From: Bacteroidia bacterium | Lineage (GTDB): Bacteria; Bacteroidota; Bacteroidia; B-17B0; Aurantibacillaceae | Assembly (NCBI GenBank): GCA_016787445.1 | Contig: JAEUTQ010000060.1 | Coordinates: forward strand, 1 to 64,000 | Direction: 5' to 3' | Length of the DNA stretch: 64,000 nucleotides | In this document: piece by piece, positions 55,054 to 64,000 of the stretch | Layout: every line of letters starts with the position of its first letter | How positions within the stretch are numbered: the stretch's first letter is position 1 | Position numbers and translations under genes: made by a program | The notes under the pieces: generated by a model | Seen by the model: only the letters and a program-made list of their open reading frames with translations | Told to the model about the DNA's origin: nothing | The model's database searches: none

Positions 55054-57738
55054 TTACGCCTTCGCAAAACGCTTTTGTCCGAAATCCAATATTCTATCAA
55101 TAAACTCGTAAGGTTTATACTGATTGATGGCTGCCTGATGATAAATACAAGTAGCAGGTGTCATACCCGGTAATGAATTTACTTCTATAAAAATAACCTC
55201 AGCACGCGGGCCATCAAACACTCTAACAAACGCATCGATACGACAATAACCTTGCACGTTTAATGCTTTAGCAGCACCACCTAAAGCTTGCTTTACCTGA
55301 TCAGAAATCAGCTGTCTCTCTTTAGCATCTTTGGCATAACGAGCCGGTGTAATGTTTTGTCCTTGCCCTGCTAAAAACTTTTCTTCCAAACTTAAAATGT
55401 CTCCTTCCGCTAAGGCTTCTGACGCTTCAAAAACTTCGTACTCAAATTCTCCTTTAGCATTAAACTTAGTAAGCATGCCTCCGGTAATTTCTAAAAAGTG
55501 TTTGGCGCCATTTTTTGAAATCAGCTCTTCCACCAAAATAACGGTTTTGATTGGAAACTCTTCTTTTGGTTTTATGTGTAATGTTTCTGCGGCTTTTAAA
55601 TCCAAATCTTCGCTTGAGCGAAACATTAATGTTGCAAATGCTTCAAATTCTTCGAAGGATTTTATTTTTTTCACCGCACTGCTACAACCGTCATCAACCG
55701 GTTTTGCAATAAATGGATATTTGTAATCATTGGCTAATACGGTTTTCAAATTCTCCTTGTTTTTCTTCCAATCATCCGCTGTAATAAGCATGTGTTTTGC
55801 AACCAAAAAACCATTCTTCATCAAAATCTCATTGGTACGGTATTTATCGATGGTAATTTCAGAACTGCTTTTATCAGAACCGTTATACGTTAAGCCAACA
55901 GCTTCTAGTTTTTCCTGAACAGAACCATCTTCACCAGGACGGCCATGTAAAGCAATAAATACCTGTTTCACTTGTTTCGCTAAATCAGAATAGGTTAGCA
56001 ATTGAGGAGCTTCTAAATTGGAAGCAGAAGAATATTTTTCAGTTACGGTATTACACTCTTTAATGATTTGATTGATGATAGGATGAACCTTATAGTTGTT
56101 TATTTTCTCCTTGATATCATCGGCATTATCCTTCAACAATAAATTAATCGGCAATTTATACATGAGGTGATTATCATGATCGCCGGTTAAGAAAACAGGA
56201 ATTGGCGCATACTTCTCTGAAGAAGCCAACTTCTCATAAATGTTTCGTCCGCTCTCAACAGAAATATGTCGTTCGGAAGAATAACCACCTAAAATAACTG
56301 CGACTTTTACTTTATTGCTTCCTGCCGATTTTTCATTCTTAATGCTTTGATCAAGCTGCTTTAAATGCGCATCATAGATTCTTGCGCCTTTTGAGTTTTT
56401 AATGCGCTTTGCCAGCGAAGTCCGGATAATGTAAGTTAAAAATTGCGAAGGATTCAATCCGATTTCCGCTGCCTGATGAAAGAAAAAAGAGGAAGGCATC
56501 ATACCGGAAGTTGTATTCGGATCATTCAAAAATATTTTCCCATCCTTACTTAAAAAACCATCAATACGTGCGTATACATCGAAATTAAGAGCGTAAAACA
56601 ACTTTTCGCACTCCTTTCGAATGGCATTGATTTGCTCATCCGGCAAATCAATTGGTGTAATCTTGCGCGAAAGTCCCGGCATGTATTTACTGCGGTAATC
56701 AAATAGCTCTTTACCTTTCCGTATTTCGGTTGGCGGAAGCGCGATTGCTTTTTCATTTTCATCTTCCAAAACAATGCAACTAAATTCCTTTCCATCAATG
56801 AACCCTTCAACTAAAACTGTGCTTTCGCCATCTAAACTTTCCAACACACAACCTTCTTTTGATTTTAAATGTTTATTCAGACTTTCAATTAAAGTATTTG
56901 GGTCGTAAACTAACTCTTCATTATCAATTGATATTGGTAACCCAATACCTTCACGGATATCCGTTAAATGCCGTACAAAATCTATCTTCTCACGCTCATT
57001 TAATTTATTCCATTCTGCTGCGTCGATCCATTTTGTAAATAACGCCTTTTCAACGGCCGACATAAATTCCACTTCATTATCCTTCATTAAAATGGTCACG
57101 CCAATGGATGATCCTTGATTAGCAGGCTTAATTACCATTGGGAAACCAATCTCTTTTTTAGCCTTATCCCACACGCCTTTACACTCGCCCTTTATCCACG
57201 CATTTCTATCAATTGTAAAAAATGATGGAGAATTAAATCCGGCTTGCACCATCAACTTTTTTTGCACGGATTTATCAATGCCAATTGCTGAAGGTAAAAT
57301 GCCGGAACCAGAATAAGGTATACTTAAATACTCGAATAAACCTTGTATGCGGCCATCCTCGCCATAAGGACCATGCAAACATAAAAACGCAAAATCAATT
57401 AAGGACTTGAGTTCATCCACTTTTACTTTCTTACCGATTTTAGAAATCAACTCGTCTTGTTGTGCCACCGAAAGATTTCCCAAATTCTCTGCGTAAAATT
57501 GAAACTCTGAATTGTTAGCCGGTAAAAATTCAACCGGCGGATAGAAATCACGAACAGTACCCTTGTAAACAAATTGCCAATCGAGTAATACAAAATTTCC
57601 GAATGAATCTACAAATAAAGGAATCGCTTCAAAAATAGATTTGTTCAAGTTATCGTAAACAGTACGGCCGCCGGCAAAAGAGATTTCACGTTCTTTAGAG
57701 CGACCACCAAAAATAATTCCGACTTTTAATTTTGACAT
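55054..57738 (-). CDS. Double-length D-alanine-D-alanine ligase-like protein (two fused ATP-grasp units)
   Basis: 894 residues, about 2.5 times a normal Ddl. Unit 1 (about 1-450): GIIFGGRSKEREISF, HGPYGEDGRIQG, IPYSGSG, PMVIKPANQGSSIGV, EGFIDGKEFSC and LNDPNTTSGMMPSS. Unit 2 (about 465-894): VAVILGGYSSERHIS, HGRPGEDGSVQ, LTYNGSD, PFIAKPVDDGCSS, ILVEELI, and FIEVNSLPGMTPA. In unit 1 the metal-binding N-E-I-N-T is N-D-P-N-T; in unit 2 it is E-V-N-S. Ddl joins two D-Ala using ATP for peptidoglycan. Each unit has long insertions. Whether both, one, or neither makes D-Ala-D-Ala cannot be told from the sequence; another ATP-grasp ligase reaction is possible. Confidence 0.85.
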   Translation of the reverse strand: MSKLKVGIIFGGRSKEREISFAGGRTVYDNLNKSIFEAIPLFVDSFGNFVLLDWQFVYKGTVRDFYPPVEFLPANNSEFQFYAENLGNLSVAQQDELISKIGKKVKVDELKSLIDFAFLCLHGPYGEDGRIQGLFEYLSIPYSGSGILPSAIGIDKSVQKKLMVQAGFNSPSFFTIDRNAWIKGECKGVWDKAKKEIGFPMVIKPANQGSSIGVTILMKDNEVEFMSAVEKALFTKWIDAAEWNKLNEREKIDFVRHLTDIREGIGLPISIDNEELVYDPNTLIESLNKHLKSKEGCVLESLDGESTVLVEGFIDGKEFSCIVLEDENEKAIALPPTEIRKGKELFDYRSKYMPGLSRKITPIDLPDEQINAIRKECEKLFYALNFDVYARIDGFLSKDGKIFLNDPNTTSGMMPSSFFFHQAAEIGLNPSQFLTYIIRTSLAKRIKNSKGARIYDAHLKQLDQSIKNEKSAGSNKVKVAVILGGYSSERHISVESGRNIYEKLASSEKYAPIPVFLTGDHDNHLMYKLPINLLLKDNADDIKEKINNYKVHPIINQIIKECNTVTEKYSSASNLEAPQLLTYSDLAKQVKQVFIALHGRPGEDGSVQEKLEAVGLTYNGSDKSSSEITIDKYRTNEILMKNGFLVAKHMLITADDWKKNKENLKTVLANDYKYPFIAKPVDDGCSSAVKKIKSFEEFEAFATLMFRSSEDLDLKAAETLHIKPKEEFPIKTVILVEELISKNGAKHFLEITGGMLTKFNAKGEFEYEVFEASEALAEGDILSLEEKFLAGQGQNITPARYAKDAKERQLISDQVKQALGGAAKALNVQGYCRIDAFVRVFDGPRAEVIFIEVNSLPGMTPATCIYHQAAINQYKPYEFIDRILDFGQKRFAKA

Positions 57739-59877: not shown

Positions 59878-60879
59878 TTAATCCTCCAACCAAATCTTAG
59901 GTAACTTTTCGGTTATTTCAATGTTGTCGAACTTTTTACTCTTTTTAATGCCGGTTTTTTTAGCCCAGGCTGCCATTTTTTGCAGACCGTTACTTAATGA
60001 AACAAAATCTTTGTCGTTTATGCCGAATACTTTTTTACTCTTTGAGTGATCAGAATAAGCGTGTTGCACTTCATTACGTGCTTCTAAAAAACGGATTGGC
60101 TGACTAAGATTCATTGCTTTTGTAACTTCCTCAGCCAATTGCTTCACGGAATAATCTACATCTCCTCCAATATTAAAAACCTCGTTGTAGGCCTCTTTAA
60201 TTTCAACGCACTTTGCGATATGTGGCGCTACATCATCGATGTAACTAAAGGCACGGGTTTGACTTCCATCTCCAAATATGGTTAATGGTTTTCCCTGCAT
60301 TAATTGATTCATGAAAATACCTACTACATTACGGTAACGGTCGCCCAGGTTTTGATATTCGCCATAAACATTGTGCGGACGGAAAATAACATAATTCAAT
60401 CCAAACATTTCGTGAGTAACCTTTAAATCCATCTCAACCGAATATTTTGCAATACCATAAGGATCTTCTGGCATCGGCACCATGTCTTCACGCATTGGTA
60501 ATTGTCCTTTCCCATAAACAGCGATAGAGGAAGTAAAAACGAAGCATTTGATTTTATGAAGAACCGCTTGATTAATGAGGTTAATACTTCCCAGTACGTT
60601 ATTGTTATAGTTAAACCTTTTGATAAAATGACTTAATCCCTCGGCAGCGTAGGCCGCCAAGTGGTACACATAGTCGAATTTTTCCTCGGCAAATAGTTTC
60701 TCAAGCAATTCGTTATCATTAATAGAGCCGTTCACGAACTTAGCCTTTGGATTTACGTTTTCCTCAAAGCCACCGCTTAGGTCGTCTAAAACAACCACTT
60801 GGTGCCCCATTTTTATTAAATGATTGGTAACGTGCGCGCCTATAAAGCCGGCGCCTCCTGTGACTAATGACTTTGCCAT
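59878..60879 (-). CDS. NAD-dependent epimerase/dehydratase, UDP-glucose 4-epimerase-like
   Basis: 333 residues, extended SDR. GGAGFIGAHVTNHL gives the GxxGxxG dinucleotide motif; VVLDDLSGG is the NAD ribose-binding Asp region; SSIAVYG and the catalytic Y-x-x-x-K (YGIAK, about residue 150) follow; then FRPHNVYGEYQ and RAFSYIDDVA. The GalE/WbpP group interconverts hexose or hexosamine UDP-sugars. Exact substrate unknown. It precedes rdgB in an operon with a good promoter and lies next to the glycosyltransferase genes, suggesting a role in surface-glycan precursor supply. Confidence 0.88.
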   Translation of the reverse strand: MAKSLVTGGAGFIGAHVTNHLIKMGHQVVVLDDLSGGFEENVNPKAKFVNGSINDNELLEKLFAEEKFDYVYHLAAYAAEGLSHFIKRFNYNNNVLGSINLINQAVLHKIKCFVFTSSIAVYGKGQLPMREDMVPMPEDPYGIAKYSVEMDLKVTHEMFGLNYVIFRPHNVYGEYQNLGDRYRNVVGIFMNQLMQGKPLTIFGDGSQTRAFSYIDDVAPHIAKCVEIKEAYNEVFNIGGDVDYSVKQLAEEVTKAMNLSQPIRFLEARNEVQHAYSDHSKSKKVFGINDKDFVSLSNGLQKMAAWAKKTGIKKSKKFDNIEITEKLPKIWLED

Positions 60880-61165: not shown

Positions 61166-63376
61166 ATGAAAGTAGCCATCATAGAATTAGACCATTTTCA
61201 ATATGGTTTAACCCAATCTGAGATATTTGATGGGCATGAAAAGATTTTTTTTGTTTCACAAAACATAAAAAAAGAAATGACCGATTACAATCCCGGATTG
61301 TGTAACGGTACATTTCATATAATTGAGAGTCTGGAAACAAACGCAGATCAAATTATTAAAACTTGTAATTCTGAATCCATTGATTTATTAATGGTAAGCC
61401 CTGTATTCAGTGGATTTGAAGCCCTTTTAAAAATAGCTCAAAACATAAAGTCTCAGAAAGTAATCACCATTCACAATGTAAACTTCTGGCTAAACTCCAG
61501 ATTTAGAACGCCGGCTGCCTTAAAAGAAAGAAAACTCAAACAAGAAATTGTAAAGTGTTTCGATTACATTGCCGTTGAAGATTTTATTTACCATCACCTT
61601 AAAACTAACAATGCTAAATTATTTAGTGAACATAAGTTCATTTATATACCCTTTACAATTTTTCAAAGCAACAAAACAAGGATTCATCAAAAAGAAAATG
61701 ATACTTTAAAAGTTGTTTTACCGGGAAGTATCCATAAAGACAGAAGGCGATATGAAGAAGTTATTGAGGTAATCACCAATTTTGCCAAGCAAGGTGCTCA
61801 GATTACCTTTTCCTTTGCAGGTAAGCCTCTGGAAGCATATGGGAAATGGGTAATAAGTCAGTTAGAAAATGCTAATGCACTAAAACCGGGAATCGCCAGT
61901 TATTTTCCTGTTAACAGTGAAAACATGCCTTTAAAATTTCTGAAAGAAATGGAAACTTCTGATTTGGTTCTTTCAACCAGTACAACAGAATTTAAAGCGC
62001 TTGGAACAACTGAATATATTGGAAAGACCAAACCAACCGCTGCGATTCATGATATGATTAGTTTCCAGCTACCGGGTTTGTTGCCTCAGCATTTACATAT
62101 TCCGGAAAACCTTGCAGATTCTGTTTTTAATTATAAAAACGCAGAGGAATTACAAAGCATACTCCAAAGTTTAATCAGCAACCCTGCAAAACTAAAGCTC
62201 TGGAAAGATCAAGCCATTAAAAACTCACAGTACTTTACGGTGAAAGAGATTCGTAAGAATCTGCCGTTTTTTTATAACCAATGTAAGAGATGCGTGATGG
62301 ATAACATCAACGATCCGGATATTTGGTTTGATAAAAATGGTAACTGTAATTATTGTAATGATTATTATAAATTCATTGAGACTGAAAAGACAAAAAAGGA
62401 TTTTGATTCTGAAAAACTAAAACCCTTATTCAGTAAAATAAAAAAAGAAGGTGCTAATAAAAAATACGATTGTTTAGTTGGTGTAAGTGGCGGAGCCGAT
62501 AGTATGTATGTGGTGCATTTGCTTGTTCAGGCCGGATTAAGACCTTTAGTTGTACATTATGACAACGGTTGGAATTCGGAAACAGCGGTGAAAAACATAG
62601 AAGTGATGTTGAACAAACTTAACATCGATTTACATACTTACATTAACGAGTGGGAAGAATTTAAAGATATTCAACTCGCGTTTATTAAAGCTTCTGTAAT
62701 TGATATAGAACTTGTGACAGACCAAGCTATTATAGCCTCACTCTATAAATTAAGCCGAAAGCACCATTTAAAATACGTTTTTACGGGGCATAATACTTCC
62801 ACTGAATTCATTTTACCAAAGCACTGGTACCATTGGAAATTAGATGGATTAAACATCAAGGCCATTCACAGAAAGTTTGGTAAGAAAAAAATATCCACCT
62901 ACCCCATTATAACCTACTTTGATCAATACTATCTTAATAAAACAAAAAAGATAGAAATGTATTCTCTTCTCAATTATGTAAAATACAATAAAGCAGAAGC
63001 AAAAGAAATCTTAAAAAAAGAATACGGATGGATTGATTACACGGGAAAACATAATGAATCCGTTTTTACACGATTCTTTCAAAACTATATTCTACCATTA
63101 AAATTTCAGGTTGATAAACGTAAAGCGCATTTATCATCTTTAATTTGTTCCGGACAATTAACACGGGAAGAAGCTTTAGAAGAACTTAAGAAACACCCAT
63201 GGGAAACTGCTGAGACCCTCGAAGACAAGGACTATGTCATTAAAAAACTTGGGCTAACTATGGAAGAATTTGACGCCTGGATAAAAGAAAAACCTGTGTC
63301 GCATTTAAAATACCCGAGTTACCTTACACGTCATGATAAAATCATTAGGTTTATTAAAAATCAGTTAGGGAGATGA
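61166..63376 (+). CDS. Glycosyltransferase fused to an N-acetyl-sugar amidotransferase (PseA/WbpG-type)
   Basis: 736 residues in two parts. Residues 1-370 look like a GT4-type glycosyltransferase (IDLLMVSPVFSGFEALLKI, VITIHNVNFWLNS, LKVVLPGSIHKDRRRYEEV split by the H, FSFAGKPLEAYG, DLVLSTSTTEF). Residues 373-736 form an N-acetyl sugar amidotransferase: a CKRC...CNYC zinc-like Cys set (about 373-397), the PP-loop GVSGGADS (439-446), VHYDNGWNSE, GHNTSTEF, and SVFTRFFQNYILP. Such enzymes, as in PseA and WbpG, replace a hydroxyl or amide to make acetamidino or similar groups on N-acetyl sugars. The fusion suggests one protein modifies and handles a sugar of a surface glycan. A glutaminase partner is not in the window. 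Confidence 0.85.
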   Translation: MKVAIIELDHFQYGLTQSEIFDGHEKIFFVSQNIKKEMTDYNPGLCNGTFHIIESLETNADQIIKTCNSESIDLLMVSPVFSGFEALLKIAQNIKSQKVITIHNVNFWLNSRFRTPAALKERKLKQEIVKCFDYIAVEDFIYHHLKTNNAKLFSEHKFIYIPFTIFQSNKTRIHQKENDTLKVVLPGSIHKDRRRYEEVIEVITNFAKQGAQITFSFAGKPLEAYGKWVISQLENANALKPGIASYFPVNSENMPLKFLKEMETSDLVLSTSTTEFKALGTTEYIGKTKPTAAIHDMISFQLPGLLPQHLHIPENLADSVFNYKNAEELQSILQSLISNPAKLKLWKDQAIKNSQYFTVKEIRKNLPFFYNQCKRCVMDNINDPDIWFDKNGNCNYCNDYYKFIETEKTKKDFDSEKLKPLFSKIKKEGANKKYDCLVGVSGGADSMYVVHLLVQAGLRPLVVHYDNGWNSETAVKNIEVMLNKLNIDLHTYINEWEEFKDIQLAFIKASVIDIELVTDQAIIASLYKLSRKHHLKYVFTGHNTSTEFILPKHWYHWKLDGLNIKAIHRKFGKKKISTYPIITYFDQYYLNKTKKIEMYSLLNYVKYNKAEAKEILKKEYGWIDYTGKHNESVFTRFFQNYILPLKFQVDKRKAHLSSLICSGQLTREEALEELKKHPWETAETLEDKDYVIKKLGLTMEEFDAWIKEKPVSHLKYPSYLTRHDKIIRFIKNQLGR

Positions 63377-63414: not shown

Positions 63415-64000
63415 ATGAAATTAGAAAACCAAAATATTTTAATCACATCAAATGAGCCATGGTCAGACGTGTGGTTTTCTAAACACAATTATGCCTGGGA
63501 ACTCTCCAAAAAAAACAAAGTATACTTTATAAATTCACCGGGTAAATGGAAACTTCGCAATCTGTTTAGCAACGCCATTGAAACAACCGCTATCACGGAA
63601 ACACTTTCTGTAATTTCTATTCAAAATATTTTTCCGTCAAATCTTAACGCACTGAAAGAGCTCAATAATTTTATTATCAGTAAGAGATTAAAAGCCTATA
63701 TGAATAATCGCGGCTTACAAGATTGGATGCTTTGGTCGTTTACGCCTCTTTTTTTGTTCAGGCCTTATCTTTTACAATGTAAGTTTACTGTATTTCACAT
63801 CATGGACATGAATTGGACCAACTTTTATGGTGCCAAGTTATTGTCGCAGTTTGCAGATCGTTTAATATTAGTATCGGAACATATTTTACCTGAGTATAAA
63901 TTTTGTACCAAACAAAAACTAGTAATAGGTCACGGTATTTCTGAAGAAGAATTTTTTCTTGAAGATTCAAAATTGAGCCTTGTAAAGAAAGAAATGGAAG
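63415..64000 (+). CDS. Glycosyltransferase, C-terminus cut by window edge
   Basis: 195 visible codons from the ATG at 63415, 38 nt after the previous stop. An overlapping ATG at 63410 stops after two codons and is rejected. The N-terminus (NILITSNEPWSDVWFSKHNYA), VYFINSPGKW, a helix-rich middle (LKAYMNNRGLQDWMLWSF), VFHIMDMNWTNFYG and the turn LILVSEHI resemble the N-lobe of GT4-like glycosyltransferases of the TuaH type. It is the second glycosyltransferase of the presumed surface-glycan cluster continuing off the window. The catalytic E-x7-E is not included. Confidence 0.78.
   Translation, partial: MKLENQNILITSNEPWSDVWFSKHNYAWELSKKNKVYFINSPGKWKLRNLFSNAIETTAITETLSVISIQNIFPSNLNALKELNNFIISKRLKAYMNNRGLQDWMLWSFTPLFLFRPYLLQCKFTVFHIMDMNWTNFYGAKLLSQFADRLILVSEHILPEYKFCTKQKLVIGHGISEEEFFLEDSKLSLVKKEME

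Follow-up and report, generated by a model that had tools for sequence, protein, structure and literature searches.

A GT4-like domain joined to a WbuX-type N-acetyl sugar amidotransferase domain in one gene of a Bacteroidia bacterium, with varied WbuX fusions elsewhere in the class

The window, by which we mean the entire 64,000-nucleotide stretch of Bacteroidia bacterium DNA that was analysed (contig JAEUTQ010000060.1 of assembly GCA_016787445.1), contains at positions 61166-63376 of the forward strand a single open reading frame of 736 codons, which begins with ATG and has no internal stop. The reading of this ORF, profile matches and homologues indicate that it encodes two domains in one polypeptide, in agreement with the original prediction: a GT-B/GT4-like domain at residues 1-368 (61166..62269, +), recognized by profile comparison, stand-alone homologues and a fold search, followed by a complete WbuX-type N-acetyl sugar amidotransferase (NASAT) domain at residues 369-736 (62270..63373, +), recognized by the TIGR03573 model and a fold match. 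An assembly or frameshift artefact was ruled out by the in-frame join and by the presence of the same fusion in two other genomes, one from a congener (G007) and one from another family (G227). The neighbors of the fusion include glycosyltransferases, a methyltransferase of the FkbM type and a gene that, judged by reading, may encode a flippase. The next gene (63415..64000, +), which extends past the window end and has 368 aa in all, encodes a putative glycosyltransferase. Its homologue lies directly after the fused gene in G227, directly after stand-alone WbuX genes in G002, G003, G005, G006 and G369, and directly after stand-alone glycosyltransferase genes in G408 and G239. A NAD-dependent epimerase/dehydratase of the sugar nucleotide type (59878..60879, -) is oriented divergently to the fusion. 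Elsewhere in the window, an 894-aa ORF at 55054-57738 (-) seemingly consists, judged by reading, of two tandem D-alanine-D-alanine ligase-like halves.

The C-terminal domain matched TIGR03573 (WbuX, N-acetyl sugar amidotransferase) over residues 372-705 with 265.5 bits (E 8e-79; cut-off 203.2), and the match spanned positions 3-342 of the 344 in the model, that is, the full model by which membership in the family is judged. Both of the features that characterize the WbuX/NASAT family, a tetracysteine and a PP-loop (PMC10607449), are intact. The zinc tetracysteine, CxxC...[GN]xCxxC, comprises C373 and C376 (62282..62293, +) and C394 and C397 (62345..62356, +), and the PP-loop SGGxDS, an ATP pyrophosphatase signature, reads SGGADS at residues 441-446 (62486..62503, +). 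When the full protein was modelled with AF2, the C-terminal half had pLDDT values mostly >80, and its best PDB match was the solved N-acetyl sugar amidotransferase 8WEX (Foldseek E 2e-13). In these motifs, in whole-domain similarity and in fold, the domain resembles the WbuX, WbpG and PseA amidotransferases, including LpNASAT (8WEX). However, the members described in the papers that we found stand alone, typically beside HisH and HisF, whereas the domain in the window forms the C-terminal half of a glycosyltransferase fusion and has HisH/HisF2 on another contig. Formation of acetamidino groups on sugars is the role proposed for the family (PMC10607449), and the C-terminal half is a putative enzyme of this type that probably turns the N-acetyl group of a sugar into a charged amidine. 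A WbuX paralogue in the same genome (L008:6924-8096, +) has two of its four zinc cysteines replaced, by G and S, and keeps the PP-loop.

Residues 1-368 alone gave no match in Pfam, NCBIfam or PDB sequence searches, and a PDB sequence search with a profile of the N-terminal family also gave none. When the 13 relatives in the family alignment were scanned singly, seven matched PF13439 (Glyco_transf_4; best E 1.5e-6) and three matched PF00534 (best E 1e-4), and comparison of the family profile with bona fide GT4 proteins by hhalign gave 95% probability (E 4.5e-8, 191 columns). The same profile also matched the family of the following gene, itself weakly GT4-like by Pfam. Because no GT4 family model matched the N-terminal half of the window protein above cut-off, the only matches being weak ones in relatives, we call the domain GT4-like and not a GT4 member. 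EX7E is a GT4 signature, and the family alignment revealed a similar segment at E275-x7-E283 (61988..62014, +), in which E283 is invariant among all 13 family members and E275 is present in eight. Both glutamates, together with the invariant G187, R193, E283, K289 and D296, are kept in the window protein, G007 and G227, and an HNxNxW block is invariant or almost so across the family. Of the two outcomes that would have counted against the original prediction, a lack of homologous fusions elsewhere and an N-terminal half that does not model as a glycosyltransferase, neither was observed, although the AF2 model of this half is of low confidence (mean pLDDT 54, two-row alignment). With that model, the top-ranked Foldseek matches were the GT4 enzymes BshA and MshA (E 8e-8). 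The domain is thus like the GT4 (GT-B retaining) enzymes BshA and MshA in profile similarity, in fold-search match from a weak model and in its EX7E-like segment, and unlike them as a divergent subfamily that falls below Pfam cut-offs, carries the HNxNxW block and is fused to WbuX. Judged from the profiles and the low-confidence model, residues 1-368 are best read as a putative GT-B domain of GT4-like type, and the probable role of this half is to add a sugar to a glycan of the cell surface.

Stand-alone glycosyltransferase homologues (G408, G239, G025) end at residue 368 of the window protein or one later, at LPF or LPFF, and the fused proteins run straight from this point into the YxQC of the WbuX domain (residues 369-736). 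A linker domain around residues 365-375, as originally suggested, was therefore ruled out, and the halves are joined end to end. A search of other genomes recovered the same full-length fusion, with the same junction, in G007 (same genus; 65% identity over residues 1-735) and in G227 (L104; halves 64% and 61% identical). In G002, G003, G006 and L028 the counterpart of the WbuX half has a gene to itself (about 70-74% identical), with a distant glycosyltransferase homologue one gene upstream, and a pattern scan of genome contigs returned one relative, which was split into two genes. In a 58-row tree, the WbuX domain of the window fell within a nine-row clade (SH-aLRT 100) that contained three fused and six stand-alone forms. 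A single clade of the three fused domains was rejected (AU p 0.00014, quick tree), indicating more than one switch between fused and split forms, which may have come about by fission, by exchange or by fusion on several occasions. Since the fused forms are polyphyletic and interspersed with stand-alone orthologues up to 73-74% identical, the join is evolutionarily labile and dispensable for function.

WbuX exceeded the TIGR03573 cut-off in 129 of the 395 genomes of the class that we surveyed (130 when read from E-values), and at least 16 of the WbuX matches among those listed lay in ORFs of roughly 600-1030 aa. Fusion to WbuX extends beyond the type of glycosyltransferase found in the window, and several other N-terminal partners were observed. 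Pfam matches identified N-terminal GT4 domains in L036, L038, L109 and L114, half of a GT4 domain in L112, a GT2 domain in L111 and hexapeptide repeats in L107, and the partner in L037, L039, L040 and L110 was a DDDD domain of GT-A-like type that matched GT2 weakly. The recurrence of fusions to GT4, GT2 and GT-A-like partners indicates that sugar transfer and amidination are repeatedly associated, and suggests that modification and transfer may be coupled, as the original prediction proposed from the window alone. A whole asparagine-synthetase-like enzyme precedes WbuX in three proteins of about 1000 residues (L041:2674-5688, L042:7026-10034 and L113:8015-11092, all -), and a class II glutaminase domain, which begins with MCGIFG and matched GATase_7, is joined directly to a divergent WbuX-like domain in L121:7326-9152 (-) and L120:7541-9559 (-), the WbuX score of L121 being 138.6 bits, below the TIGR03573 cut-off. 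The latter arrangement would constitute a self-contained glutamine-dependent amidotransferase operating without HisH/HisF. AsnB-like genes also occur near stand-alone WbuX genes in L034, L035, L039, L040 and L043.

The hisH/hisF-like genes that were anticipated downstream of the fusion did not appear in C57:60900-80800, nor was this usual local partner found anywhere on C57. The genome has three HisH copies, two on C51 and one on C41, so ammonia would need to come in trans. One of the C51 pairs belongs to a pseudaminic acid type cluster (L007:240-5913, -) that has PseI, PseG and PseF over their cut-offs, a WbuX gene and a HisF-like gene. The other, at C51:47061-48409, consists of HisH and an AglZ/HisF2 acetamidino protein scoring 316 bits against a cut-off of 310 (NF038364). 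A HisH + AglZ/HisF2 acetamidino modification system accompanies WbuX in a Sphingomonas exopolysaccharide cluster (PMC11340318); the genome studied here is similar in encoding HisH and an AglZ/HisF2 that scores over its cut-off, but differs in that the pair is located outside the cluster of the fusion and would have to be used in trans. From the gene content, supply in trans to the window fusion seems likely. AglZ/HisF2-class genes, delimited by a line at ~262 bits that was drawn after the scores were seen and is below the curated cut-off of 310, were present in 97 of 130 WbuX genomes compared to 3 of 265 others, with genomes counted singly and kinship ignored. The supposed reliance of WbuX on a HisH/HisF2 partner is therefore common but not universal, as 33 of the 130 were without an AglZ/HisF2-class gene, some of them carrying a WbuX of the PseA type that has a separate HisF class as partner. 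All three genomes with the window-type fusion (G000, G007, G227) have AglZ/HisF2, in the window's own genome on a contig other than that of the fusion, and in G270 the fused WbuX (L110) is directly followed by HisH and AglZ/HisF2. G244, G397 and G405, which carry other WbuX fusions, are without AglZ/HisF2, and G397 gave no HisH match.

We propose, with our confidence evenly balanced, that the fused protein belongs to a surface-polysaccharide cluster and is bifunctional, its glycosyltransferase half adding an N-acetyl sugar and its C-terminal half amidinating that sugar with ammonia provided in trans. The GT4-like domain would transfer an N-acetylated sugar onto a growing lipid-linked glycan, and the WbuX domain, either after transfer or on the bound sugar, would activate the N-acetyl oxygen with ATP, releasing AMP and PPi. 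Ammonia produced by the HisH and AglZ/HisF2 pair of C51 would then convert the activated N-acetyl to an acetamidino group, with the fusion holding the amidotransferase at the sugar that the glycosyltransferase handles. Of this scheme, we infer the substrate, the order of the steps, the coupling and the supply in trans. In its favor, the glycosyltransferase probably works without amidination: the nearly complete (99%) genome G239 has a 55% identical stand-alone orthologue next to the same following glycosyltransferase gene and gave no match for either WbuX or HisH. Several observations weigh against it: there is no local hisH/hisF, the join is labile, fusions occur in G244, G397 and G405 without AglZ/HisF2, the model of the N-terminal half is weak, and E275 is variable.

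The main rival is amidination before transfer, in which the C-terminal half would amidinate a nucleotide sugar donor and hand it to the fused glycosyltransferase domain. Nucleotide sugars that already carry the amidine, CMP-Pse5NAc7NAm among them, are known from Campylobacter, channelling of a donor would suit a fusion, and the genome itself has the pse cluster with PseI, PseG and PseF beside another WbuX with HisH/HisF. Nevertheless, we consider this order of events somewhat unlikely, as close relatives keep the glycosyltransferase and WbuX as separate genes, and as the orthologous glycosyltransferase of G239 occurs in a genome with no match for WbuX or HisH, so that an amidinated donor is not needed there. 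An uncoupled union of two operon neighbors, each half acting on its own target and only their stoichiometry being fixed, would fit the end-to-end join, the stand-alone versions of both halves at syntenic positions and the polyphyly of the fused WbuX domains inside their clade, but retention of both domains with intact motifs across two families, and the joining of WbuX to several different kinds of glycosyltransferase, make it a rather improbable explanation. That the N-terminal half has lost catalysis and serves as a sugar- or membrane-binding module recruiting the amidotransferase, as its lack of a direct family match in the window protein and the variable first glutamate of EX7E might imply, is very doubtful given that the window, G007 and G227 proteins retain both glutamates and the five invariant residues, and that stand-alone forms are kept in a genome that lacks WbuX.

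Extending the bifunctional-enzyme reading to the family, it is conceivable, although we hold it only tentatively and think it more apt to fail than to stand, that WbuX acts at the stage of glycan assembly, in physical partnership with the glycosyltransferase responsible for adding its target sugar, that the fusions to unrelated glycosyltransferase folds are direct traces of this partnership, and that the fused forms of G244, G397 and G405 draw ammonia without HisH/HisF2. The papers that we found say little about the stage at which acetamidino groups are added to bacterial surface sugars, whether on the nucleotide sugar or on the lipid-linked glycan. A transferase and an amidotransferase for presumably the same sugar on one polypeptide would allow the sequence of the two reactions to be tested in a single tube, and fusions that recur in this way could help to predict which glycosyltransferase handles an amidinated residue. 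Both halves are of known kinds. In the open-licence literature that we searched, we found a structure paper and cluster descriptions but no account of glycosyltransferase-WbuX fusions, and to that extent the architecture is new. Relatives of the glycosyltransferase half were not found in viral contigs. WbuX-type genes do occur on contigs classed as viral in IMG/VR (L124 to L141; viral class as given there), and one of them, L134:2643-5125, has HisH and HisF directly upstream.
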